A stretch of DNA of 64,000 nucleotides from Jeotgalibacillus aurantiacus (GTDB lineage Bacteria; Bacillota; Bacilli; Bacillales; Jeotgalibacillaceae): contig NZ_JACNMS010000001.1 in the NCBI RefSeq assembly GCF_020595125.1, forward strand, positions 744,001 through 808,000, given 5' to 3'. Below the pieces are notes generated by a model. The model worked only from the letters and a program-made list of their open reading frames with translations, searched no databases and was not told the DNA's origin. Shown piece by piece: positions 2,392 through 60,940 of this stretch (its first letter is position 1; each line of letters begins with the position of its first letter). Both the position numbers and the translations under genes were made by a program.

Positions 2392-3117
2392 TTTGCGTGG
2401 AACCGGTTTGTCAGGTTAACGAGAAAGTTTGTGAGGTTAGAAGGAGAGTTCGTGAGGTTAGACGCGGAGTTTGTGAGGTTCCATAACGAATTCGTCAGCT
2501 TGCGCGGGAATTTGTGAGTTTAGTATCTTTTGGACTATGTTGGAAGGGTACTTTTTCAAACAGGATTGTTCAATCTGACAGCACTTTTGCGTGGAACCGG
2601 TTCGTCAGGTTAGCGGGCAAATTTGTGAGGTTAGGGCATGAGTTCGTGAGGTTAGACGCGGAGTTTGTGAGGTTCGGCGGCGAGTTCGGCAGCTTCCGCG
2701 AAAGTTTGTGAGGTTGGTGTCTTATGGACTATGTTTGAGGGACACTTTTACAAGCCAGGTTGTTCAATCTGAGAGCACTTTTGCGTGGAACCGGTTCGTC
2801 AGGTTAGACGCGAAGTTCGTGAGGTTAGAGCATGAGTTCGTGAGGTTAGACGCGGAGTTTGTGAGGTTCGGCGGCGAGTTCGGCAGCTTCCGCGAGAATT
2901 TGTGAGGTTAGTGTCTTATGGACTATGTTTGAGGGACACTTTTACAAGCCAGGTTGTTCAATCTGAGAGCACTTTTGCGTGGAACCGGTTCGTCAGGTTA
3001 GCCGACAAATTTGTGAGGTTAGGTCATGAGTTCGTGAGGTTAGACGCGACTTTCGTGAGGTTCCATAGCGAGTTCGTCAGCTTCCGCGAAATTTTGTGAG
3101 TTTAGTGTAATTTGGAC
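2392..3117 (+). repeat. Four-copy 194-bp satellite made of 21-bp motif arrays
   Basis: The motif TTYGTSAGGTT begins at 2407, 2428, 2449, 2470, 2491 and 2511. The same six-motif block starts again at 2601, 2795 and 2989, each exactly 194 bp on. Copies 2-4 also share about 85 bp of nearly identical sequence between blocks (containing GGACTATG and GCGTGGAACCGG); copy 1 is more diverged. Each block has an open frame of heptads of the form FVRLxxx, but the 194-bp unit changes frame from copy to copy, which argues against translation. It fills the gap between the convergent cupredoxin and ilvE genes. Confidence 0.9.
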
Positions 3118-4938: not shown

Positions 4939-5015
4939 GTAAATTTTGGTTCATACCCTATTTATATGGTTTACCTGCGAAAATCGAACAGCCTTTAACA
5001 TGCACAACTGCCCTT

Positions 5016-5183
5016 TTATGAGTGCGTCGAGTTTTCCACACTAGATGATGTGTGTGTTCCTTCAGCGTGATAAGGTCGGGAGTCATCACTTGAATAGGCG
5101 TGCTGACTGCGTTTTTTACGCTTCCTGTCCGAGTAAAACCCAAGCGCGAAAATAAAAGCAATGGTCCCAACAAAAATCCACAT
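5016..5183 (-). CDS. 55-aa single-helix membrane protein
   Basis: Starts MWIFVGTIAFIFALGFY, one membrane helix, then a basic stop-transfer patch (DRKRKKR) and a Ser/His-rich tail. AAGGGGGAG is placed ideally before this ATG. A longer open frame on the same strand (4958-5209) overlaps it but lacks a good ribosome site and has no protein-like composition, so I prefer this frame. Function unknown. Confidence 0.55.
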   Translation of the reverse strand: MWIFVGTIAFIFALGFYSDRKRKKRSQHAYSSDDSRPYHAEGTHTSSSVENSTHS

Positions 5184-5309
5184 ACGAACTCCCCCTTAAA
5201 AGGAAACAATTTCCTTTATCATACGCGATACCCTTTGAAAAAGGAAGCCCATATACTTGATCGAAAAGTAGTTATTAAAATATACACTCAATCGCTTTTA
5301 CATCCAGAA

Positions 5310-5400
5310 TGTCTGGTCATTTCAAAGACTCTCTATGGAGGAAAGGGACATGTTCACAATACAACCAAGAAGCGGAAGATGTTTCATGGATCGGTTTTTC
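5310..5400. repeat. Degenerate copy of the hairpin repeat
   Basis: AAAGACTCTCTATGGAGGAA and GGGACATGTTCAC line up with GAAGACTCCTGTGGCGGAAA and GGGACAGGTGAAAC of the intact element just downstream. The terminal stem is lost. Confidence 0.4.
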
Positions 5401-5439
5401 CATCTCGTTTCATAAGAAAGAGGATTTGAATTCTACACA

Positions 5440-5552
5440 GGGTCGGACTCATCCGAAGACTCCTGTGGCGGAAAGGGACAGGTGAAACCGACTGTGCGAA
5501 GCACAAGCGGGTTCACCGCCCGGCCACGGAAAGCGTAGGATGAGTCCGACCC
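5440..5552. repeat. 113-nt hairpin repeat, copy 1
   Basis: Terminal arms GGGTCGGACTCATCC / GGATGAGTCCGACCC pair perfectly (15 bp). Inner parts include CAGGTGAAACC / GGGTTCACC and a TGTGCGAAGCACA hairpin. Related copies lie at 43254-43366 and 56664-56778, with remnants elsewhere. Noncoding in all frames that I can see. Confidence 0.85.
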
Positions 5553-5591
5553 GTCTTTCAAAAAAAAAGGAAGCGGCTTTCAACCGCTCCC

Positions 5592-6209
5592 TCACCTCAT
5601 CATCTTCTCAATAAACTCCCTCAGCACCCGCGCAGTCAATCCCCAGATCACACGGCCTTCATAATGGTAAAAGTATTCTTTATACTGCCGTGTTTGCCAC
5701 TTATACTCGCGCCCGTTGGCAATCAGATCGAAAGGAAAATTCTCTTCCGGCTTTACCTCAACATTAATCGTATGCTCATCCGGTGGTGTCTCTATAAAAA
5801 AGGACAGCGGTACGGTAAACACTTCCTCCACCTCTGCAGGGTTCGGCTTGAGCTCATGATCATCATCTAAAAACCCTACATACGTGCTGATCGTCATCCC
5901 GAATGGTGATACCAGTTTACCGAAGGAATGGACGCGCTTAATCGAGTTTCGGCTGATGCCGAGTTCTTCTTCTGCTTCCCTTACCGCCGCCTCCTTTGCA
6001 CTGTCATCATCCTGATCGATCCGTCCTCCCGGAAAACAGATTTCCCCAGGCTGACGTCTCATGGTCAGAGAGCGCACCTCAAACAGCAGATGCAATTCCC
6101 CGTTTTTCTCCACGAAAGGAAGCAGAATCGAATAATTACGAACTGCCTCCTCTCCTAAAATAAATGGTTCATGCGCAACAAGGCGCTCCGTTAATTCCCG
6201 TTCATTCAT
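5592..6209 (-). CDS. NUDIX hydrolase, CoA pyrophosphatase type
   Basis: 205 residues. The NUDIX box runs from GGRIDQDDDSAKEAAVRE into AEEELGI (about residues 61-84), which binds Mg2+ for hydrolysis of nucleoside diphosphate-X substrates. Extra residues before the box (LPFVEKNGELHLLFEVRS and RQPGEICFPGG) fit the YeaB/NudL branch that cleaves coenzyme A to 4'-phosphopantetheine and 3',5'-ADP. The substrate is inferred from that likeness. A hairpin repeat lies downstream. Confidence 0.8.
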   Translation of the reverse strand: MNERELTERLVAHEPFILGEEAVRNYSILLPFVEKNGELHLLFEVRSLTMRRQPGEICFPGGRIDQDDDSAKEAAVREAEEELGISRNSIKRVHSFGKLVSPFGMTISTYVGFLDDDHELKPNPAEVEEVFTVPLSFFIETPPDEHTINVEVKPEENFPFDLIANGREYKWQTRQYKEYFYHYEGRVIWGLTARVLREFIEKMMR

Positions 6210-10105: not shown

Positions 10106-10191
10106 AGATATCAACGTGAATGAGAACAGAAACGGATCCCCGTCCTGTTATTCCCGCTGCATCTTCTCTATTCCCGGAGAAGCTTACAATC

Positions 10192-10352
10192 GGCAAAAAC
10201 GGCAGGTCTCCTGGCTCACACATCTTCCTTTCTGCACCCTTCCCATCTTTAACAGACAGTGGCTTGTACAGATCGTCCGTGCTTACAGTTGCGGGAACAG
10301 CTCCGGATTCACACCGGATTCCCTTTTAACCCTTAACGGGCACCGTTTTCAC
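10192..10352 (-). promoter_or_regulatory. Cobalamin riboswitch controlling nrdE-nrdF
   Basis: Minus strand. P1 is AAAACGG (near 10350) with CCGTTTT (near 10198). Conserved parts appear in order: GGGAATCCGGTGTGAATCCG, CCCGCAACTGT, GCCACTGT, GGGAAGG, and the B12 box GAGCCAGGAGACCTGCC. A terminator follows 90 nt on. The aptamer family binds adenosyl- or other cobalamins; the ligand form is not decided here. Confidence 0.95.
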
Positions 10353-10358
10353 TGGTAG

Positions 10359-10405
10359 TAACAATATATTGTGTTATTTAGTTATAAAAATTCTATATAT
10401 TGTAT
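10359..10405 (-). promoter_or_regulatory. Tandem NrdR boxes upstream of nrdE
   Basis: Box 1 (10359-10374) reads ACACAATATATTGTTA on the minus strand and box 2 (10390-10405) reads ATACAATATATAGAAT. They start 31 bp apart, three helical turns, the usual spacing for NrdR. They lie just upstream of the riboswitch, where the promoter should be. Confidence 0.8.
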
Positions 10406-11159: not shown

Positions 11160-11295
11160 AGATTGTTGGTCGCGAAGCCTGGACGGTTTGATAAGCCGGA
11201 TCGGCTTCGCGGGTAACTAGAGGTTTGCTGGTGATGCGGTTCCGGGGACACAGGCGTTGTGGCGGTGGTGTCGGGGCGTGGAGAGTTGCCGGGAT

Positions 11296-11480
11296 TCCTT
11301 CACTTCGGGCAGTTTTTCCTTCTTACTGGATTTTTTATCCTTCTTTTCGGAAATCGATTCCTTCTTTTAAGATTTTTATTCCTTCACTAGCCCTTCCACC
11401 TACATGATTTCCTTCATTCAATCTCCAGATTCCTTCTTTTCAAGGTCCCGATTCCCTCACTCCTGAAGATGATTCCTTCA
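11296..11480 (+). repeat. Nine-motif 21-bp array, TCCTTC family, copy 1
   Basis: TCCTTC or TCCCTC begins at 11296, 11317, 11338, 11359, 11380, then 11410, 11431, 11453 and 11474. Steps are 21, 21, 21, 21, 30, 21, 22, 21. The bases between motifs are not conserved. The array fills the gap between the convergent GNAT and hydrolase genes, and I see no other feature in this 450-bp stretch. Confidence 0.9.
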
Positions 11481-11606: not shown

Positions 11607-12251
11607 TCACCCATCAAACATCCCGGTCTGCAAAAACCGGTGAACGAATTCCGCAGTTTCTCTTCTGTGATGAATGTCCTTATGTCCGTATGGCAGAATC
11701 AAAAAATCCTTTAACCCCCGATCATAGACGGAACTCATTTCGACGCGGCCGTCATTGCGCTCTCTAATCATTTTACCGAGGAAAAGGTTGGACCTGTCCC
11801 CTGCAATGGACCCCATTTCAACATCAGCCGGCTTAAACGCATAAGTTCCGACGAATTCAGGTGTAATAGAAGCAATGGTTTTGTAAATCCTCGTGAAAGG
11901 CTGCACGCGATGGGCATGCCGGGCCAGCTGACTTCCCTGGCTCGGTGTAGCGATCAGGACTGCTCTCATAACCTTGGCTGCATAACCAGGGTCAGACAGC
12001 ACGTCTCTGATGACAAGCCCGCCTGTACTGTGCCCGACTAAAAAGACCTGCTCTCTATCAGGTACTCGATTAAGCATTTGCTTAAGGTGTGATGCCGCAT
12101 CTTCAAACGGATGAAAGCGGAGCGGGTAGTTCAATGTCAGACAGTCATAGCCGAATGATGCAAGGGAACGCTCCAATGGATACATATCAGATGCCCCTTT
12201 ATTAAAGCCGTGGATCAGAAAAATACGATTTTGTTTAATCTGTTTGTCCAT
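11607..12251 (-). CDS. Alpha/beta hydrolase
   Basis: 214 residues. FLIHGF near the N-terminus gives the oxyanion region; VGHSTGG (residues 72-78) is the nucleophile elbow with Ser at 75; a late His lies in LPYGHKDIHH. This resembles small cytoplasmic esterases or lipases. Ribosome site AGGGTGA. The substrate is unknown. Confidence 0.8.
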   Translation of the reverse strand: MDKQIKQNRIFLIHGFNKGASDMYPLERSLASFGYDCLTLNYPLRFHPFEDAASHLKQMLNRVPDREQVFLVGHSTGGLVIRDVLSDPGYAAKVMRAVLIATPSQGSQLARHAHRVQPFTRIYKTIASITPEFVGTYAFKPADVEMGSIAGDRSNLFLGKMIRERNDGRVEMSSVYDRGLKDFLILPYGHKDIHHRRETAEFVHRFLQTGMFDG

Positions 12252-13388: not shown

Positions 13389-13483
13389 CTCCTCAGCTAT
13401 CCATTTGCAGAAATGGTTTAATCCGAAAACGACCAGACCTTGTTTTGATTGATGTTGCTGAATGAGCGAACCTTGAGCTTAAT

Positions 13484-13668
13484 GTTGATCGAATGTTTAT
13501 TATTGTCGCTAGGCAGCCTGTTTATGTCGTTAGGATGGTTGTTTATGTCGATAGCCTGTTTCAGAAGGCACTAATTGTCATTAGCACCAGAATTAACGTC
13601 GATCAGCCCATAACTTCTGTCGTTAACATCTCCAGTTTTGTTGATAGCGCGAAAGAATCTGTCGATAA
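13484..13668 (-). repeat. Nine-motif 21-bp array, CTATCGAC family, inverted copy
   Basis: On the plus strand GTCGATAG-like motifs begin at 13484, 13505, 13526, 13547, then 13577, 13598, 13619, 13640 and 13661. Read on the minus strand the steps are 21 x 4, 30, 21 x 3, the same plan as the arrays at 11296 and 58556. It lies between convergent genes. Confidence 0.9.
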
Positions 13669-17943: not shown

Positions 17944-19287
17944 CTAGTTTGTTTTGACTTGCACTTCTACCCCATTGTTCTGAATGACCTGCTGAAACCA
18001 TTTAGCACTTTCTTTTGGAATACGTTCCTGTGTTTCAAAATCAACATATACCAGGCCAAAGCGTTTGCTGTAGCCGAATGCCCATTCAAAATTGTCCAGG
18101 AAACTCCAAGCGAAGTATCCTCTTAAATCTGCGCCGGCTTCGATTGCATCCAGACATGCGTCCAGGTGCTCCTGAAGATATTGAATACGGTCGGAATCCA
18201 CTACCTTGCCGTCTGTCACTTCATCATCGTAAGCGGCACCATTTTCCGTTACATATAAAACCGGGTTGTTATACTCTTCCTTCAGTCTGATCAGCAGATC
18301 TGAAAGCCCCTTTGCATATACTTCCCAGCCCATTGCTGTACGACGGTGTCCACCACCTTCATGACCCGCATCCAGCCATGCTCCCGGCTGATGATTCAGG
18401 TATGAGATGGAGTAATAATTAATACCAAGGAAGTCAACCGGTGCTGCAATCGCTTCCAAATCTCCTTCTTTAATAAAAGAGAAATCAGTATACACACTGT
18501 AATGCTCAAGCATATCTGCCGGATAAGATCCTTTGAATACAGGATCCAGGAACCAGCGATTCAGGAATCCATCCCATCTTACAGCTGCTTCTTTAGAAGA
18601 AGGCTGCTCGTCTGCAGCGTATGAAGAGTTCAAGTTAAGCGTAATGCCAATCTCACCCTTACGCTGCTTCGCACGAAACTGTTCAACCACTTTGCCGTGT
18701 GACAGTAATACATGGTGTGCGGCTTTTAAAAACGCAGGGATATCACGGTAACCCGGTGCATGCTCGCCTGAACCATGACCCAGCCAGCTGACTACCCAAG
18801 GTTCATTATGTGTAATCCAGTTCGAAACCCGGTCCCCAAACCGGTCAAACAGCACTTCACAATAATGAGCAAATTCTTCTACAATCTCACGGTTCATCCA
18901 ACCGCCGCGATCCTGCAATGCCTGAGGTAAATCCCAGTGATAAAGTGTCACAGCCGGCTTAATGCCTTTCGCTTCAAGCTCTGTTAACAGACGGTCGTAA
19001 AAGGCAAGACCTTCTTCGTTGACTACCCGGTCTCCATCAGGAAAAATTCTGGACCATGAAATCGAAAAGCGGTACCATGGTACATCTAAATCTTTCATTA
19101 ATTGAATATCTTCCGGATAACGATTAATGTGGTCACACGCAACCTCGCCATGATCTCCATTCAGTACCTTCCCCGGATTTTTACAAAATTGATCCCAGAT
19201 CGATTCGCCTCTGGTATCACGACCACCCTCTATTTGAAAGGAAGAAGTAGCGGTTCCCCATACAAAGTGTTCTGGAAATTTCCTCAT
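17944..19287 (-). CDS. GH1 beta-glucosidase
   Basis: 447 residues, the normal GH1 length. Acid/base Glu162 in THNEP and nucleophile Glu348 in VTENG are both present; the N-terminus FVWGTATSSFQIEGG is typical. There is no signal peptide, so it acts in the cytoplasm. It resembles BglA/BglB beta-glucosidases rather than 6-phospho enzymes, in line with ABC rather than PTS uptake. It is the first gene of a five-gene operon (GH1, binding protein, two permeases, LacI). It hydrolyses imported cellobiose-like sugars to glucose (inference). Confidence 0.93.
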   Translation of the reverse strand: MRKFPEHFVWGTATSSFQIEGGRDTRGESIWDQFCKNPGKVLNGDHGEVACDHINRYPEDIQLMKDLDVPWYRFSISWSRIFPDGDRVVNEEGLAFYDRLLTELEAKGIKPAVTLYHWDLPQALQDRGGWMNREIVEEFAHYCEVLFDRFGDRVSNWITHNEPWVVSWLGHGSGEHAPGYRDIPAFLKAAHHVLLSHGKVVEQFRAKQRKGEIGITLNLNSSYAADEQPSSKEAAVRWDGFLNRWFLDPVFKGSYPADMLEHYSVYTDFSFIKEGDLEAIAAPVDFLGINYYSISYLNHQPGAWLDAGHEGGGHRRTAMGWEVYAKGLSDLLIRLKEEYNNPVLYVTENGAAYDDEVTDGKVVDSDRIQYLQEHLDACLDAIEAGADLRGYFAWSFLDNFEWAFGYSKRFGLVYVDFETQERIPKESAKWFQQVIQNNGVEVQVKTN

Positions 19288-19451: not shown

Positions 19452-19665
19452 AACTTTCACAAACATTCAATTCTAGTAATATATTCGCTTTTATATTCGT
19501 GTTAAAGTTTGTTATATCCTGATTATTTGGAAAAACGGGGTCATTTGTAGGGGTTTTTAAGGAAAGTGCTTTTCGTATCAATGAAAGTGAGTTTGACGCG
19601 GAACCAAACTGCTATGATCACGATCTCCACTCCGCGGGAAACAGAGGTGTTGTCGTTTGGAGTCT

Positions 19666-19860
19666 ATCGACCTTTATTTCGTTTCAATCAACGTTTTTAG
19701 AGGCGCTATAGACAAATATCAAATGCCTATCGACAGTTCCGGGACCGCTAACGACATTTTGAATCTGGTCAAGCAGCCGATCGACATTAGTTGGCTTTCC
19801 ATCAACAAAAGAAACGATTGGCCCTATCAACAAAAAGAAAATGCTCGTCTTATCGACATA
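19666..19860 (+). repeat. Nine-motif 21-bp array, CTATCGAC family
   Basis: ATCGAC-like motifs begin at 19666, 19687, 19708, 19729, 19750, then 19780, 19801, 19826 and 19852. Steps are 21 x 4, 30, 21, 25, 26, so the plan is kept except for small insertions in the last two steps. It lies between the beta-glucoside promoter region and the 3' end of the L31 gene. I see nothing else in 19452-19660. Confidence 0.85.
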
Positions 19861-19964
19861 ACAATGCCCTATCCCGGCCTTGTATGACAACGATTAAAAG
19901 TCCAACAAACCAAAAAGTCCGCATCCACTTAAAAGTGAACACGGACTTTCCGGTTGTGATGACA

Positions 19965-26592: not shown

Positions 26593-27235
26593 TTATGCTC
26601 TGGAGCGCCTTTTAACAATATAATAAATCACAGCTGCAATAAACAGCACTGCAAGAATGACGTAGGCGACATTTGAATAAACGTCCATTCTCCGGACAAT
26701 TGTCTCCCAGGAATCTCCTACTGATGCTCCAAGATAAATCAACACAATATTCCAAATCAACGTTCCTGCTGTTGTGAAGCCAAGAAATATCCAAATGTTC
26801 ATTTGTGAAGCCAAGAAATATCCAAATGTTCATATTTGACATCCCTGCAGGAATAGAAATCAGGCTTCTGATTAGTGGAACAAATCGGCAAAAGAACACA
26901 GTCCAGGGGCCATATTTATCAAACCAGGCATCCGCCCTGTGCAAATCCTCTTTATTCACACGCAAAACCGTTCCCCAGCGGTCAATGATTTTCTCAAGCC
27001 TCTCTACATCGAGCTGAACTCCGATATAGTAGAGTGCAATTGCACCTGCTACTGAGCCCGCAGTAGAGGCTGCTACCACACCGGGAATGGTTAATCCCGA
27101 ATCTACTGTCATGAACCCGCCAAATGTTAAAATAACCTCAGAGGGGATCGGCGGGAATATGTTTTCCAGTGCAATCAGAAAAAACACACCAAAATATCCA
27201 TAATCATTCATTATTTCTGTCAGCCAATTTTCCAT
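26593..27235 (-). pseudogene. DedA-family membrane protein, frameshifted by a 31-bp tandem duplication
   Basis: Reading from 27235, the frame gives a normal DedA start (ENIFPPIPSEVILTFGG, then FVPLIRSLISIPAGMSNM) up to NIWIFLGFT. There the segment at 26773-26803 is repeated at 26804-26834 (30 identical bases, spacing 31), which shifts the frame. The proper C-terminus (TTAGTLIWNIVLIYLGASVG and on) lies in another frame ending at 26593. With one copy removed the gene would be 204 codons, the family's usual length. DedA proteins flip undecaprenyl-phosphate or lipids and support membrane potential. The duplication looks recent because both copies are identical. Confidence 0.9.
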
Positions 27236-34832: not shown

Positions 34833-34938
34833 CCTTCTCATCTTCGGAATATCTTCCTCTGAATTTGGCACCGTGCAGCAGGCTGCTGGTTGCCGAGGCT
34901 TCGCAGGGTCAGTCCCTCCACCTCTCTTGATAAGAAGT
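34833..34938 (-). promoter_or_regulatory. SAM riboswitch (S-box) upstream of sfnG
   Basis: Minus strand. CTTATCAAGAGAGGTGGAGG opens P1/P2, then GGGACTGACCCTGCGAAGCC, CGGCAACC, GGTGCCAAATTC, and GATGAGAAG closes P1. All S-box hallmarks are present. About 170 nt separate the terminator from sfnG; that stretch holds a plus-strand-oriented AGAGGTG / GCACCTCT hairpin (about 34724-34750) of unknown use. Confidence 0.95.
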
Positions 34939-41171: not shown

Positions 41172-41189
41172 GAATTGTGCATCATGCGA

Positions 41190-41217
41190 AAGCCGCTCTC
41201 TAGGGGAGCGGCTTTTT
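41190..41217 (+). terminator. nox terminator
   Basis: AGCCGCTC / GAGCGGCT with TTTTT, 19 bases after the stop. Confidence 0.88.
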
Positions 41218-41312
41218 GATGCTGGTGGGCGGAGCAGCGGGCGATCGACAACACCAAATTATTTGCAAAATGCTAAAACATGGATGAGTGCCAGGCGGGT
41301 AAATGGTCACTA

Positions 41313-41430
41313 TTTTACGAACCGGCATTAAAATCCTGCGAAACCCCTCACACATCCTGCGAACGTCCGGCATCATTCTTCGAACCATCCTCAATATTTT
41401 GAGAAACTCGCTCAAAATCCTGTGAAACTC
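41313..41430 (-). repeat. Six-motif 21-bp array, TCCTGCGAA family
   Basis: The core GCGAA (variants ACGAA, TCGAA, GAGAA, GTGAA) begins at 41317, 41338, 41359, 41380, 41401 and 41422, each exactly 21 bp on. It lies between the convergent nox and lipase genes. Strand is nominal. Confidence 0.85.
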
Positions 41431-41532
41431 ACCAAAAGCCGCCTCCAGAAACCACAAAAAAGCCGCTCCCTTCCCCAAAGGAGCAACTTTTCAGGAAATT
41501 CTCTTTATATGAACATTCAAACCCAATGAAGA

Positions 41533-43092
41533 TTAATAAGCGTTACCCTTTTCATCTACAAATACTGATTTAATCACGGTACGCTGGAACTTTTCACCTG
41601 TTGGCGTTGTTCCTTCAACTTCAACGGTCATATTGTAGCTTCCTTCTTCAGATGGCAGCTGAATAGCATTGCCGCTTTGTTTAAATATACGCATTTTTTG
41701 ACCGAGCTTTTTGTTATCTTTACCGTTACCCGGCACAAACCCGATGTCAGCAAACGCCTTCACACTGGCTTTTCCGTTAGATTTTGCAGCCAGTCCGTTT
41801 TGTGTCTTAAGGTTCCAGTTCTTTTTATCAGCTTCAGGCTCAAGAACGAGCTGGTCATTTAGCGCAGAGTCAAAAGTGACCATCAGCGCGTAGGCAGTTG
41901 GCGCATCTGAAACCGTTGCGGCCTTCCACTCTCCCGCTTCCGGCTGATCGATCGTAATGGTGTGATGATATGCTCCCTTAAAGAACATCGTGTCATCCTC
42001 AACGGATGTAACATTGAACGTTTCAGGCACTGCTTTCCCTGGACGAGTCAGTTCGACTTTGTCGTGCTGCGTTGCACTCAGCCAGTTGATCACAAGTTTT
42101 TCTGCTTCGCTTTCTACATAAAACGATTCAGAGGCAAGTCCATCCTGCTGTCCTCCACGCACGAGCACATCCATCGACGGCTCAGTCACTTCTGCTGTTG
42201 CAGCCACTTCGTTAAATGCAGAGAAAGTGGAAGCAGCCCGCTGTTGTGTCAGGTAAGGCTGGAAAATAGAGAATACATTGCTTCCCTTGTTCACTTCTCC
42301 GTGATTCCAGTTGCCAACCCCAAGACTCGTTGCGTACGGAAGCTTAGAACTCGCTACAGAAACAACACCGTCACTCGGGCCGTCAATAAAGCCGCTGCCA
42401 TACCAGTAGCTGCTGAAAATCGGACCAGTACGATTGCCGGCAAGGCTCAGGTAACGATTCTGACTGACTTCAAAACGATTATCCGTAATCGAACGGAAGT
42501 AGCGCATGTTTCCAGTCTGAAGACTCTGCGTGCCTGCGCTGTTTTGCCCAATCAGATTTGCAAGCCAGCCAAATGATGAACTGTTGGCCAAATCCGCAAG
42601 CTCACTGCCATAATGAGGTGAGCCAAGTGTGATGACATTGGAAACGAGCGGGTATTTCCCCTGGTGAATCAGCGCCACCTGCGTATCGACGCCACCTTTA
42701 CTGTAGGCTACGATTACAAGTTTTTTCCCGCCGTAATGGTTTGAAATCTGCTGCAGTTGACCCGCAAGCATCGCACCATTATCCCAGTAGCTGCGCGGCG
42801 AGCCGCCTGAATCATACAATTCAACAAAAGCTGTCTGATAACCAGCCTGGAATGCACGGTTGTACATATCGTTATCTGTATACCAGACCGTAGAATCATT
42901 TGTCAGTCCCTGAACAAATACAACCACGGGTTTATTTGGATCAACATACGCCGGAGTAGCCCCCATCAGAATCGTTCCGGGTACGAGGTTCGCATCGCCT
43001 GGTGATTTAAATCCACCAGCAAATGCAGCCGAAGGCATTGCCATTGACAAGAGCAGCATAAAAGCAAGAAACATGGAAAGCGGTTTTCTCAT
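41533..43092 (-). CDS. Secreted lipase/esterase with C-terminal extension
   Basis: 519 residues. A signal peptide (residues 1-25, ending SAAFA) precedes an alpha/beta-hydrolase domain: VVVFVQGLTND is the oxyanion strand and AYSKGGVD holds Ser131, a variant of the usual GxSxG. SDGVVSVAS near 240 would supply Asp, NHGEV the His. Residues after about 300 form a beta-rich region of unknown role, perhaps for surface or substrate binding. The long ORF is intact and the ribosome site is GGGAG. Confidence 0.85.
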   Translation of the reverse strand: MRKPLSMFLAFMLLLSMAMPSAAFAGGFKSPGDANLVPGTILMGATPAYVDPNKPVVVFVQGLTNDSTVWYTDNDMYNRAFQAGYQTAFVELYDSGGSPRSYWDNGAMLAGQLQQISNHYGGKKLVIVAYSKGGVDTQVALIHQGKYPLVSNVITLGSPHYGSELADLANSSSFGWLANLIGQNSAGTQSLQTGNMRYFRSITDNRFEVSQNRYLSLAGNRTGPIFSSYWYGSGFIDGPSDGVVSVASSKLPYATSLGVGNWNHGEVNKGSNVFSIFQPYLTQQRAASTFSAFNEVAATAEVTEPSMDVLVRGGQQDGLASESFYVESEAEKLVINWLSATQHDKVELTRPGKAVPETFNVTSVEDDTMFFKGAYHHTITIDQPEAGEWKAATVSDAPTAYALMVTFDSALNDQLVLEPEADKKNWNLKTQNGLAAKSNGKASVKAFADIGFVPGNGKDNKKLGQKMRIFKQSGNAIQLPSEEGSYNMTVEVEGTTPTGEKFQRTVIKSVFVDEKGNAY

Positions 43093-43253
43093 TTCTTTCT
43101 CTCCCTTTATACGGTTTGGACCGAAAATCCCGACCCTTGCATTTCCAGCCGCATACAGTGTTCGACAAATGTAAGCGTTTTCCTTTGTAAATGATATAAA
43201 TAATTATTTATTTTTTATGAAGGGTGTGTAAATGGAGTTCATCTTCATAAACC

Positions 43254-43366
43254 GTGCGTGGGCATTCCTACGCTTTCCGTGGCCGGGCGGTGAACCCGCC
43301 TGCGCTTCGCACAGTCGGTTTCACCTGACCCTTTCCGCCACAGGAGTCTTCGGAATGCCCAGGCAC
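43254..43366. repeat. 113-nt hairpin repeat, copy 2 (inverted)
   Basis: Arms GTGCGTGGGCATTCC / GGAATGCCCAGGCAC pair with one mismatch. The inside is the reverse complement of copy 1 in most places (CGCTTTCCGTGGCCGGGCGG, CCACAGGAGTCTTC). The outer stem sequence differs from copy 1 yet still pairs. Confidence 0.85.
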
Positions 43367-43508
43367 TCTTTTAAAATTAATAATTTACAGTGAAAGACGA
43401 TAATAAAATCCCATCAGAACAAAATAAACTGTATTTCAATCCACTATCCTTTATATTCTTGCCATCTACCCCCTCTTCTACTACGCTGAATGAAAAGGAG
43501 TGGTGGGG

Positions 43509-44108
43509 ATGAATCCGTGGGATCGCCGTTTTAGTGCGGAAAAATATATTTATGGGACGGAGCCGAATGAGTTTCTTGTGTATGCACAGAAGAAGTGTCA
43601 GCTTCATTCGGCAAAGGTGCTGACGGTGGCTGAGGGTGAGGGCAGGAATGCGGTGTTTCTTGCGCGTAAGGAAAATGAAGTGGAGGCATGGGATTATTCT
43701 GCGGAAGGTCTTGCTAAGGTTCAGCGTTTAGCAGAACAGAACCGGGTGGAGGTCAAAACCAGGCTGGTTGATTTAACTCAGGCTGAGTGGAAATCTGAAT
43801 CAGCGGATGCGGTGATTAATATATTCGGTCATATTGATCCGGCGGGGAGAACAGATATGCTGGACGGTATTAAGAGTACAGTGAAGCCTGGAGGATACTT
43901 TATTTCAGAGGTGTATTCAAAGCATCAACTGGCGTATAAAACAGGTGGCCCTCCTGATATGGACTATTTATATGCAGCCATGGAGATGCTTGAGGAATTC
44001 AGTGACTGGAAGCTTATCCACTTTTTTACGGGAGAAGTGGAGCGGTATGAAGGTAAGCTGCATAACGGGTTGTCTCATGTTGTGCAGGTGATTGCGCAGA
44101 AAGTATAA
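43509..44108 (+). CDS. Class I SAM-dependent methyltransferase (TehB-like)
   Basis: 199 residues. VLTVAEGEGRNAVFLA is motif I (SAM binding), VEAWDYS motif II and ADAVINIFGHI motif III. MNPWDRRFSAEKYIYGTEPNEFL at the N-terminus, here cited only for its first part WDRRFS, is shared with TehB-like thiol/tellurite methyltransferases. ATG 43509 has AAGGAG eight bases upstream. Substrate unknown. Confidence 0.82.
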   Translation: MNPWDRRFSAEKYIYGTEPNEFLVYAQKKCQLHSAKVLTVAEGEGRNAVFLARKENEVEAWDYSAEGLAKVQRLAEQNRVEVKTRLVDLTQAEWKSESADAVINIFGHIDPAGRTDMLDGIKSTVKPGGYFISEVYSKHQLAYKTGGPPDMDYLYAAMEMLEEFSDWKLIHFFTGEVERYEGKLHNGLSHVVQVIAQKV

Positions 44109-44130
44109 AAAGCATGCGGCTGCATGCTTT

Positions 44131-44625
44131 TTATCCATTTGCCTTGAGCGAGCTCCTAGCAGCAGGACGCTGTTTCTGTGACGCGGTCTCAAGCTTCGGT
44201 CCAAGCTGGAATAACAGCACACCTGCGCTGATCATCAGCACCCCGACAAATGATTGGAACGTAAACGGAACCTTTTCGAGTCCGAACCAGCCCAGCGTAT
44301 CCCACATCAAACCAAAAAAGATTTGTGACACCATCACTAGCGAAATCGCCCGGCTTGGCCCCAGTGACTGAACGCCCTGAGTTACACATGCGACGACACC
44401 CACGCCAACAATACCACTGAACCAGAACCACGGCTCTGCATCAAAAACAAATAACGCTGCTCCTTCAAAGGCAAGCCCCGCTGCAAATGAAGCAAGAAAG
44501 CCGAGTGCCAGCACAAGCATCGTGGTCGACCAGACACTTACCTGCTTTTTGACGTTGGCGTTAAATGTGTTTTGCAGGCACACAAATGCGCCACCTAACA
44601 GCGCAAGTAAAATTCCAACAATCAT
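44131..44625 (-). CDS. DMT-family membrane protein (DUF606/YdcZ), first copy
   Basis: 164 residues, five hydrophobic helices, half the size of common DMT transporters, so probably a dimer. GGAFVCLQNTFNANVKK resembles GGFFLTFQSVANATIGQ of the neighbour at 45314; the two likely form a heterodimer. ATG overlaps the stop of the Crp-type gene by 4 bases. Confidence 0.8.
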   Translation of the reverse strand: MIVGILLALLGGAFVCLQNTFNANVKKQVSVWSTTMLVLALGFLASFAAGLAFEGAALFVFDAEPWFWFSGIVGVGVVACVTQGVQSLGPSRAISLVMVSQIFFGLMWDTLGWFGLEKVPFTFQSFVGVLMISAGVLLFQLGPKLETASQKQRPAARSSLKANG

Positions 44626-45302
44626 TGCACATCCCCCTTTTCATAAATATTTTCACCTGCGAGTTCCATGATGGAAGCGCGGTTTAAAATTTCGATGGAG
44701 CCGCGTGATTTCGATATCCACCCTGCCTTTTGGAACTGGCTCAATACGCGATTTAAATGACGGTAGCTCGTACCGATCAGATCTGCCATATCAACAAGTG
44801 AGGCCGACTCGATTTTTTCTTTGACAGGCGTCATTGATAGCAGGTAGCTCGCCACTCGCACATCAACCGGATAAAGCAGATTAAAGTTCATCGTATGTGA
44901 CTTCAGCTCGAATTTTTTCGTGATGGCTTCAAGTAGAAATTGCAGCCAGGCCGCATTCTGAGCCATTCCATTTCGCAGCACTGTGTATGGAATTTCAATG
45001 ACGGTCGTTTCCATAACACTTTCTACCGTGTTGATGAGCGGACCGTGCGTGACATATTCAACATCGCCGACAATATCAAACGGCGTCTTAAACGCGACAA
45101 TCAGCCGCTTCCCCTCAGGAGAGAGCATTGACACCTTTACTTTCCCTTCGACAAGCAGCAGCATTGCCGTTGCTGTCTCCCCCTGTAAAAGAAGTTTTTT
45201 ACCAGGGGCAAACGTACGCACCTGCATCACCTGTTGAAGCTCCTTTGGAAATAAGTCCTGCAAATCGTATTTGGTTAAATAATAAGAGGTTTTCTGAACC
45301 AC
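44622..45302 (-). CDS. Crp/Fnr-family regulator (YeiL-like)
   Basis: 226 residues: an N-terminal cyclic-nucleotide-type barrel (about 20-120, LLLQGETATAMLLLVEGKVK) and a C-terminal helix-turn-helix (DLIGTSYRHLNRVLSQFQ). No Fe-S cysteine cluster is visible, so it is not FNR itself. Start is GTG with AGGAGG seven bases upstream. It lies between two DUF606 membrane genes and probably controls them through the palindrome at 45793-45814. Confidence 0.85.
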   Translation of the reverse strand: MVQKTSYYLTKYDLQDLFPKELQQVMQVRTFAPGKKLLLQGETATAMLLLVEGKVKVSMLSPEGKRLIVAFKTPFDIVGDVEYVTHGPLINTVESVMETTVIEIPYTVLRNGMAQNAAWLQFLLEAITKKFELKSHTMNFNLLYPVDVRVASYLLSMTPVKEKIESASLVDMADLIGTSYRHLNRVLSQFQKAGWISKSRGSIEILNRASIMELAGENIYEKGDVQ

Positions 45303-45313
45303 TTTTACACCTC

Positions 45314-45739
45314 CTAAATTTTCAGGATGATCACACCTGCAATCATCAGCAGGATACCAATTACCTGCGTTTTACTGATTTGTTTTTTGACCATATCAAA
45401 TAATCCGAATCGATCAATCACCACTGCTACTAAAAGCTGCGCGATGAGAAAAATACTGATCGTCAGTGTGACACCCATCAAGTATACGGCTGTCATATTA
45501 CTGAACAGTACAAGAGCAGCAAACGTACCACCCGACGCATAGAGCTTCGGTACTTTAGGAAGCTCCTTCCACGTGCGGTCTCTGACAGCTGCTACGATCA
45601 GGATCGCAAGAATAAAACCGGTAAACTGCGTCATGGCCGCAGCCTGCCACGTCCCGATCTGCTGGCCGATCGTCGCATTGGCCACACTCTGGAAGGTCAG
45701 GAAAAAGCCGCCTGCAAGCGCAAATAAAATGCCTTTCAT
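45314..45739 (-). CDS. DMT-family membrane protein (DUF606/YdcZ), second copy
   Basis: 141 residues, about five helices. It is the first gene of a three-gene operon (DUF606, Crp-type regulator, DUF606). Transported substrate unknown. Its stop codon TAG lies inside the ribosome site of the regulator gene. Confidence 0.8.
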   Translation of the reverse strand: MKGILFALAGGFFLTFQSVANATIGQQIGTWQAAAMTQFTGFILAILIVAAVRDRTWKELPKVPKLYASGGTFAALVLFSNMTAVYLMGVTLTISIFLIAQLLVAVVIDRFGLFDMVKKQISKTQVIGILLMIAGVIILKI

Positions 45740-45792
45740 GATGCTTACACGTCCTTTCTGTTGCTTCCACTGTATATCCGTATTTTACCTTG

Positions 45793-45814
45793 AATAAGGA
45801 CATATGTCCTTATT
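45793..45814. promoter_or_regulatory. 22-bp perfect palindrome, likely Crp-type operator
   Basis: Core AAGGACATATGTCCTT with matching AAT/ATT ends. On the minus strand a TATACA box lies at 45776-45771; a start near 45764 would put the palindrome centre at about -40, the class II activator position. A TATAAT (45818-45813) overlaps the other edge, so repression is also possible. Confidence 0.6.
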
Positions 45815-45990
45815 ATACGAGAGTATCGCGGCGGACCGTGTTGTTCTTTCACTCGTCTATCAAGATTCATTCACATTGATTCGTAGCAGGGGCACTTTCC
45901 ACAAAAATCCGGCGAACGCAGGGGCTCTGAATGATTTTTAGGTACCTAAAAGCATACAGGTGACGCTTCGCTTGTGCAGGGATTGGGAAC

Positions 45991-46107
45991 TTGGACACTT
46001 TCTCTGGCTATTTGGACACTTTTGGGGACAGCTTGGACACTTCCCCCACTGACTTGGTCACTTTCTCACGTTACTTGGTCACTTTTTGACTGAACTTGGT
46101 CACTTTG
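45991..46107 (+). repeat. Six-motif 21-bp array, TTGGACACTT family
   Basis: TTGGACACTT begins at 45991, 46012 and 46033; TTGGTCACTT at 46054, 46075 and 46096. All steps are exactly 21 bp. It lies upstream of the DUF606 operon and downstream of the gene at 46289. I see nothing else in 45830-45985. Confidence 0.9.
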
Positions 46108-46245
46108 TTGAACAAAGAATTCTCTCCGCAACATAGACAGGCGGCTGTGCAGAAATTTCATTTCCCATTCCCCTCTAATTTGACGCGAAGGCAGACAACA
46201 CCATAAACTACACCCATTCCGCGTCAAACCAAATCACCAACAGCA

Positions 46246-60773: not shown

Positions 60774-60940
60774 CTATCGACAGATTCATTGATGCGATCA
60801 ACAAAAATTTACTTGCTATCGACATAAAACAAGAGCCTATCAACGTTAGATCCAATACTTTCAACAAATTCAGCTCTCTGATAGAATCTATCGACATAAA
60901 CAATGCCCCTATCAACAGAAATAATCGTGCTATCGACATC
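60774..60940 (+). repeat. 21-bp array, CTATCGAC family, copy with eight clear motifs
   Basis: ATCGAC/ATCAAC begins at 60776, 60797, 60818, 60839, 60860, then 60890, 60911 and 60932. Steps are 21 x 4, 30, 21, 21. A ninth motif expected near 60953 is degenerate. It lies between convergent genes. Confidence 0.88.

Follow-up and report, generated by a model that had tools for sequence, protein, structure and literature searches.

The genome of a bacterium of the genus Jeotgalibacillus carries many short stretches, read as non-coding, in which a 10-letter DNA word recurs exactly every 21 bp, usually six times, or nine times in a layout of five motifs, a 30-bp step and four motifs. The word differs between sets of arrays and between species while the count and the spacing stay, and such arrays look like docking platforms for a DNA-binding protein assembly that remains unidentified. 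What is conserved here is a number and a spacing, which is the reverse of usual repeats and binding sites and is what a DNA–protein assembly of fixed stoichiometry would impose. We found no description of these arrays in the literature searched, which left out many subscription journals.

Periodic arrays in the window

We analysed a window of 64,000 nucleotides from Jeotgalibacillus aurantiacus (GCF_020595125.1, contig NZ_JACNMS010000001.1, positions 744,001 to 808,000). Below, this genome is G000 and its sister species G009, while the other genomes compared are given by number; arrays are assigned to families (A to G) according to their motif. The features of the window are the following.

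2403..3111 (-), a satellite of four blocks of six motifs each, family B (AACCTSACGAAC on the - strand), with a period of ~194 bp
11294..11479 (+), nine-motif array of family G (ATTCCTTC), with 5 sites, a 30-bp step and 4 sites; one step is 22 bp
13483..13668 (-), nine-motif array of family F (CTATCRACA), with 5 sites, a 30-bp step and 4 sites, read on the - strand
19664..19858 (+), family F array with 5 sites, a 30-bp step and then irregular steps (21, 25, 26); absent from G009 as a clean block of about 246 bp
41189..41217 (+), intrinsic terminator of the upstream + gene, pointing at the array and read from the sequence
41297..41311 (+), conserved 5' end box (GGGTAAATGGTCACT) directly before motif 1, with a consensus near TAGGTCAAATGTCACT
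41312..41428 (+), six-motif array of family C (ATYYTNNGAAMC), with exact 21-bp steps
41457..41492 (-), intrinsic terminator of the facing - gene, pointing at the array
45889..45949 (+), probable remnant of a neighbouring A/D element: end of a last motif, CCGGCG hairpin and palindrome TTTAGGTACCTAAA; similar sequence, read by eye, follows A and D arrays elsewhere
45991..46105 (+), six-motif array of family A (TTGGWCACTT), with exact 21-bp steps
60774..60938 (+), family F array with 5 sites, a 30-bp step and 3 sites found; absent from G009

An earlier note had reported six motifs at exactly 21 bp, without any 30-bp step, near 41.3 and 46.0 kb, and both arrays are confirmed. The array at 45991-46105 consists of TTGGACACTT three times and then TTGGTCACTT three times, starting at 45991, 46012, 46033, 46054, 46075 and 46096, and there is no seventh site. 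The array at 41312-41428 reads ATTTTACGAAC, ATCCTGCGAAA, ATCCTGCGAAC, ATTCTTCGAAC, ATTTTGAGAAA and ATCCTGTGAAA, starting at 41312 and every 21 bp. The core GCGAA given for it in the note holds for only two of the six motifs, and ATYYTNNGAAMC is the better consensus.

These arrays are more than chance. At 8/10 identity and at least 4 copies, the window has 6 chains at lag 21 (four in the satellite, one at 11.3 kb and one at 46.0 kb) and 0 at each of the other 18 lags from 15 to 33, while 20 block shuffles gave 0 at lag 21. The 41.3-kb array is too degenerate for this chain test and was found by a six-row column test, which gave 5 hits at lag 21 and none at lags 19, 20, 22, 23 and 30.

Classes of copy number and motif families

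The note also proposed that six-motif arrays form a second size class of the same kind of element, next to a nine-motif class, and our clustering supports this view. In an even sample of this genome (20 x 20 kb), 18 arrays pass the five-row test at lag 21 and 1 at all other lags from 17 to 27, and with six rows these numbers are 13 and 2. We read 19 lag-21 arrays of this 400-kb sample as non-coding, at 16 places, that is about 165 per genome by extrapolation, so that any binder should be abundant. Of 85 phased six-class arrays from four species, 62 span six slots, 19 five, 3 four and 1 seven, none being longer. These 85 are the arrays whose core fitted at least 4 of 6 slots, out of 111 non-redundant detections (families E, F and G, unclassified arrays, other genomes and weaker fits were left out), and a later re-anchoring moved some of them by one slot. 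Strict scans for 3-, 4- and 8-copy arrays in the sample and the window added one lag-21 array, itself with a 30-bp step, although degenerate short arrays could be missed.

All 51 TTGGWCAC pairs lying 15-45 bp apart in this genome are 21 or 42 bp apart. The nine-motif class occurs in three motif families, and F sites step by 0 or 9 modulo 21 in 60 of 64 steps in G000 (54 + 6) and in 32 of 35 in G009. We therefore see no continuous spread inside the genome. Exceptions nevertheless exist, namely nine consecutive C motifs on contig C8 of G000 (position 46126) and seven on contig C3 of G003 (position 5692), both with visibly duplicated units. Outside the genus, arrays of 5, 4-5, 8 and 13 copies occur, and six is at most a genus rule; in the scan of 397 genomes the backward control hit once each in two genomes. 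The note's count of five motif families understates the diversity, as we count seven in this genome.

Conservation, turnover and genomic context

The comparison of 20 array pairs between G000 and G009 revealed differences at 101/1481 motif columns (6.8%) and 146/1012 spacer columns (14.4%; Fisher p 8e-10). The spacer value is higher in 16 pairs, the motif value in 2, and both are equal in 2. Sixteen pairs have no indel, and in the other four the gaps add to 21 bp (two with one further base), so motif and period look selected. These pairs represent 20 of the 35 phased G000 arrays, two B arrays of locus L048 having been left out as paralogous matches and the others lacking a matching G009 stretch in our data. 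They are not all independent: both C copies of locus L046 match one G009 region, the two arrays of locus L177 are neighbours and four are satellite blocks. Without the four satellite pairs the values are 73/1193 and 103/796 (p 3e-7), and with one L048 pair included they are 118/1554 and 176/1071.

Arrays turn over quickly. The 41.3-kb array keeps six motifs in its G009 ortholog, whereas no array is found in G001 and G004, which keep the same convergent gene pair. Three of the window's seven array loci lack a same-class counterpart in G009. Replacement at orthologous loci was seen twice: at 46.0 kb of the window the family A array faces a nine-class family G array in G009, and an A array in G000 (L181:11353) faces a C-like array in G003 (L075:11352). 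At one other matched gap (G003 L075:12865) no array was detected in G000. Five of 12 genomes of the genus have no match to the C pattern, so the C arrays at least are dispensable.

The arrays sit at the ends of transcription units. Terminators pointing at the array within 200 bp accompany 36 of 85 arrays compared to 22 of 148 other intergenic regions, although this control is crude and satellite copies are counted singly. Seventeen of 37 arrays outside predicted ORFs lie between convergent genes, compared to 78 of 350 intergenic gaps, but gene calls were crude, linked copies are counted, and 9 further arrays were set aside as overlapping an ORF. The end box lies before motif 1 of B and C arrays, with a consensus drawn from 14 non-redundant C arrays (G000, G009, G003 and G004) and 19 B arrays (G000 and G009); a simple match, for which there was no control, is found in 37 of 44. 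We suspected that B/C arrays carry one A-like site and A/D arrays one C-like site at their ends, but this was not supported when scored against 363 control windows (best p 0.005 in one of eight tests, others 0.09-1), so only the end box itself is claimed.

Possible functions and origins

We tentatively favour, with less than even confidence, the view that each array is a cis-acting double-stranded DNA platform for a sequence-specific DNA-binding protein. Sites two helical turns (21 bp) apart put six (or nine) subunits on one face of the helix, so that an oligomer of fixed size can bind or wrap about 126 bp as a unit. At the ends of transcription units, often just past intrinsic terminators, the bound complex would act as an insulator, a roadblock or a local DNA organiser, and the motif families would reflect paralogous or fast-changing binders. 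The binding of a protein, the control of the count by its stoichiometry and the boundary role are inferred, and the lack of an identified binder, the different copy numbers outside the genus and the dispensability of the C arrays weigh against this view. A further and unlikely possibility would be a family of related DNA-spooling complexes in Bacillales, in which paralogous ring- or disc-forming proteins of six and of nine DNA-binding units each read their own motif at two-turn steps and together mark transcription-unit ends at 100 or more chromosomal places. Motif and reader would co-evolve so that species swap motifs while the geometry (6 x 21, or 5-30-4) is conserved, in effect a sequence-programmed bacterial counterpart of positioned nucleosomes or insulators.

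The main alternative, which we consider less likely, is that the arrays are miniature mobile repeats, mobilised in trans by an enzyme recognising the six- or nine-site array and targeted to regions behind terminators. Presence and absence between sister species fit mobile repeats as well, including the clean block at 19643-19892, as do the absence from G001 and G004 at 41.3 kb, dispersed copies that share spacers by eye (e.g. L090:14284 and L096:7651 in G009), tandem satellites, and the conserved flanks of A/D and end box of B/C arrays. The orientation of A and C arrays follows GC skew in 29 of 35 cases, as for elements inserting with a strand preference; this count uses contigs C1, C3, C4 and the end of C2, where GC skew was sampled, and leaves out C5-C8. 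However, there is no clear target duplication, only ACA at the one clean junction, which also fits a microhomology deletion, and no array-flanked enzyme gene was noticed, though without a systematic search. Motifs change more slowly than spacers at matched arrays, Mu-type transposases are absent from all 7 species with C matches, and the Y1/REP transposase is absent from G004, which has the most C matches. A mobile element of this kind would be one defined by count and phase, with none of the enzyme families tested here behind it. With regard to a phage origin, scans of viral contigs gave 32 and 15 stretches. When the C-pattern hits, with 80 of the 119 stretches from genome contigs, were ranked by spacer identity, the lowest 45 of 430 hits showed only Jeotgalibacillus below 0.45, then an uncultured Bacteroidetes at 0.47 and viral ones from 0.53, the 15 A-pattern hits being left uninspected.

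Other explanations appear weaker still. It is improbable that the six sites of transcribed arrays titrate an RNA-binding protein or a small RNA, although six repeated unstructured sites resemble sponge RNAs in principle and the arrays lie near 3' ends. With regard to structured RNA, there is no RNA fold signal in 8 strands, which fold no better than shuffles (z -1.2 to 2.5), and no Rfam match on arrays of the window and of four array-rich stretches. Decayed minisatellites or tandem duplications of a 21-bp unit are very unlikely. Occasional 21-bp unit duplications and satellites of about 170-280 bp do exist, and long low-diversity 20/21-bp tandem arrays occur in another family (locus L107), but spacers are near random within C arrays while motifs are kept, the count peaks at six, indels are few and in units, and motif sites change at half the spacer rate. 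Degenerate coding heptad repeats, suggested by the equivalence of 21 bp and seven codons, are the least likely. Two of the 21 sampled lag-21 hits read as coding (L045:19049 and L049:18785), and nine of 46 arrays, the 41.3-kb one included, overlap a predicted ORF of 80 aa or more. In the six frames of families A-D, however, stop counts are close to the column-shuffled expectation and no frame is consistently open, the lowest cases (one A frame with 21 against 35 expected, another with 15 against 20, and one D frame with 14 against 19.5) still having many stops.

Comparison with known systems

REP/BIME elements and their RAYT transposases (PMC3733652) are likewise dispersed and intergenic, lie mostly behind genes and between convergent or unidirectional ones, and form species-specific families, some without a dedicated transposase. 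REPs are nevertheless palindromes of 20-40 bp, whereas the present ones are direct arrays of about 126 bp or more with random spacers and a fixed count. The Y1 tyrosine transposase numbers 2 in G000 and 0 in G004, which has 95 C-pattern hits. Plasmid iterons and Tn7/Mu end arrays probably share direct repeats about two helical turns apart bound by one protein, but would sit at one origin or at transposon ends and not at many chromosomal places with many motif families; DDE transposases with a Mu-transpos_C domain were found only in G002 and G005, which have no C matches. LytTR regulator sites such as AgrA boxes may combine a 9-bp motif with a step of about 21 bp, apparently as pairs at promoters, and LytTR proteins do not track the arrays, with one in G000, one in G003 and five in G008, which is without C matches. 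Compared to CRISPR-like arrays, with long near-identical repeats in free number, the motif here is short and degenerate and the count peaks at six.

The TAACTGA direct repeats of Beggiatoaceae and Cyanobacteria (PMC4679880) form 169 intergenic sets of two to six direct repeats in one genome, but they are heptamers of one motif, mostly upstream of start codons and variable in copy number. A precedent in Bacillales for the association of a ring with periodic sites is RemA of Bacillus/Geobacillus, an octamer proposed to wrap DNA with at least six periodic, weak protected sites (PMC8481266). RemA protections are 7 bp with 3-bp intervals (a period of about 10 bp), AT-rich and upstream of promoters. 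In our even sample plus window, five-row hits number 0 at lags 9, 10 and 11, 1 at lag 12 and 27 at lag 21, and the arrays of Jeotgalibacillus display a 21-bp period with strong lineage-specific motifs at gene ends.

Arrays in the window

The two arrays named in the earlier note, described there as six motifs recurring at exactly 21 bp, are in the sequence.

41312-41428, six ATYYTNNGAAMC motifs at exact 21-bp steps
45991-46105, TTGGACACTT (three times) and TTGGTCACTT (three times), starting at 45991, 46012, 46033, 46054, 46075 and 46096

In the window, chains of four or more 10-mers at 8/10 identity occur six times at lag 21 and never at the other 18 lags from 15 to 33, and 20 block shuffles gave none at lag 21. 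The 41.3-kb array is too degenerate for that test and was found by column scoring over six rows, which gave 5 hits at lag 21 and none at lags 19, 20, 22, 23 and 30. The window also has other features.

10184-10362 and 34835-34936, - strand, cobalamin and SAM riboswitches
26772-26833, perfect 31-bp tandem duplication
46179-46230, separate dispersed inverted-repeat-like element with ends TTTGACGCG... and ...CCGCGTCAAA

The last of these recurs in intergenic regions, sometimes beside arrays, and was also seen in two other stretches (L046 and L058).

Arrays across the genome and motif families

The window is part of a 3.5-Mb, 19-contig genome (hereafter G000). In 20 evenly placed stretches of 20 kb, 18 arrays pass the five-row test at lag 21 and one at the other lags from 17 to 27 together, while with six rows the figures are 13 and 2. 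Both tests together yield 21 arrays, of which we read two as coding repeats, leaving 19 arrays at 16 places. One of these two, a coding 7-residue repeat at position 18785 of stretch L049, also gives lag 21 and must be kept out of any census. The motif families seen in this genome are A, TTGGWCACTT; B, AACCTSACGAAC; C, ATYYTNNGAAMC; D, TTATTTRACMACTCT; E, TTGTATCGTTTC; F, CTATCRACA; and G, ATTCCTTC. By eye, A resembles D, B resembles C and E resembles G.

Two count classes

Leave-one-out motif scoring was applied to 85 phased arrays of families A-D from G000, from its sister species G009 and from two further genomes of the genus, G003 and G004. The slot span is six in 62 arrays, five in 19, four in 3 and seven in 1, and none is longer. 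As detection needed five good rows, shorter arrays were sought separately, and strict 3-, 4- and 8-copy scans of the even sample and window added one lag-21 array, of family F with a 30-bp step. All 51 pairs of TTGGWCAC at distances of 15 to 45 bp in G000 are 21 or 42 bp apart, and the 97 listed pairs of G009 look the same by eye.

Families E, F and G form the other class, with five sites, one 30-bp step and four sites, although not every site of every array matches the core. F sites step by 0 modulo 21 in 54 and by 9 modulo 21 in 6 of 64 steps in G000, and in 30 and 2 of 35 steps in G009. A similar layout with another motif, CGGGTCACC, is in G004 (stretch L191), where eight sites were found in a 4-30-4 arrangement. 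Exceptions exist, namely nine consecutive C motifs on contig C8 of G000 (position 46126) and seven on contig C3 of G003 (position 5692), both with visibly repeated units, as well as an irregular second half in the array at 19.66 kb of the window.

Distribution among species

Family A is in G000 and its sister G009 and not in the other 10 genomes of the genus, and family B matched those two only among 249 genomes of the order, 9 of the 12 genus members included. A relaxed C pattern of three sites hits G000 61, G009 52, G003 51, G004 95, G006 59, G011 13 and G001 6 times, and the remaining genomes of the genus (G002, G005, G007, G008 and G010) not at all; read backwards, it hits nothing in the 12. 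G003 and G004 have their own flavour, TTCTNNGAAC.

Of 397 genomes of the order, 15 have the four-site C pattern, seven of the genus and eight others, whereas the backward control hits two genomes once each. Among the others are ordinary tandem repeats, a run of 13 in G019 (a genome of another Bacillales family), and random-spacer arrays with 5, 4-5 and 8 sites. Fourteen 20-kb stretches from 14 other genomes of the order gave lag-21 hits in one only, stretch L107. This stretch, from G019, carries long arrays of TTTGACCGATAGAA (20-bp step) and TGTTTATGGGCCGG (21-bp step) in many copies at 4990-5650 and 11640-12200, possibly a relative of the same phenomenon without a fixed count. Motif arrays with a 21-bp step are therefore wider than the genus, and the six/nine rule is not shown beyond it.

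Sequence conservation and turnover

G000 and G009 are 79-96% identical over aligned window blocks longer than 400 bp. In 20 matched arrays, with motif columns set from family profiles, motif columns differ at 101 of 1481 positions and spacer columns at 146 of 1012 (Fisher p 8e-10), spacer divergence being higher in 16 pairs, lower in 2 and equal in 2. The pairs are not all independent; without the four satellite pairs the comparison is 73/1193 vs 103/796 (p 3e-7). Four pairs have gaps, adding to 21 bp (two with one further base), and 16 have none.

The arrays are gained, lost or replaced between related genomes. The 41.3-kb C array is in G000 and G009, while G001 and G004, which keep the same convergent genes, have a short gap with one terminator. 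The F arrays at 19.66 and 60.77 kb are absent from G009, the first as a clean block of about 246 bp. Where G000 has the A array at 46.0 kb, G009 has a nine-class G array, and at another orthologous gap G000 has an A array (stretch L181, position 11353) and G003 a C-like one (stretch L075, position 11352). An operon of about 4 kb that reads like siderophore uptake, on contig C10 of G009 (~290.1-294.2 kb, stretch L155) and absent from G000 at this place, carries a C array at its 3' end. Some dispersed copies share spacers, so copying occurs.

Genomic context

Arrays are enriched behind terminators, with 36 of 85 having one pointing at them within 200 bp, against 22 of 148 other intergenic regions. 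B and C arrays begin with an end box, consensus near TAGGTCAAATGTCACT, while A and D arrays are followed by TTTCRTGAAAAATCC and often by a CCCGGCG hairpin. A conserved flank (GACTTATGACCTCGAGGGGCTAG...AAGCGG...) precedes several A arrays (stretches L089, L090, L091 and L095) and looks like another interspersed repeat.

On the G000 contigs with sampled GC skew (C1, C3, C4 and the end of C2), C arrays lie with the motif on the strand of negative skew in 18 of 21 cases (p 0.0015) and A arrays in 11 of 14 (p 0.06), together 29 of 35 (p 1e-4), whereas B and F arrays are mixed. This may reflect replication, gene strand or insertion preference. No reading frame is kept open, no fold signal was found in eight strands, and no Rfam family overlaps an array in the window or in four array-rich stretches.

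Possible mechanism and comparison with known systems

The step equals two turns of B-DNA, indels come in whole units and the count is peaked, which points to double-stranded DNA bound on one face by an oligomer of set size. That the count equals a subunit number is an inference, as is the insulation of neighbouring transcription units suggested by the place of the arrays behind terminators. The main alternative is that the arrays are miniature mobile repeats, although the enzyme families tested do not follow them.

RemA, an octameric ring in Bacillales proposed to wrap DNA with at least six periodic sites, provides a precedent for the principle (PMC8481266) but not for the family, since its period is about 10 bp, which is not enriched here, and its sites are at promoters. 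We found no account of such arrays in the literature, as far as our incomplete coverage of it allows. The nearest described sequences are REP elements (PMC3733652) and TAACTGA repeats (PMC4679880), both different in layout from the arrays reported here.
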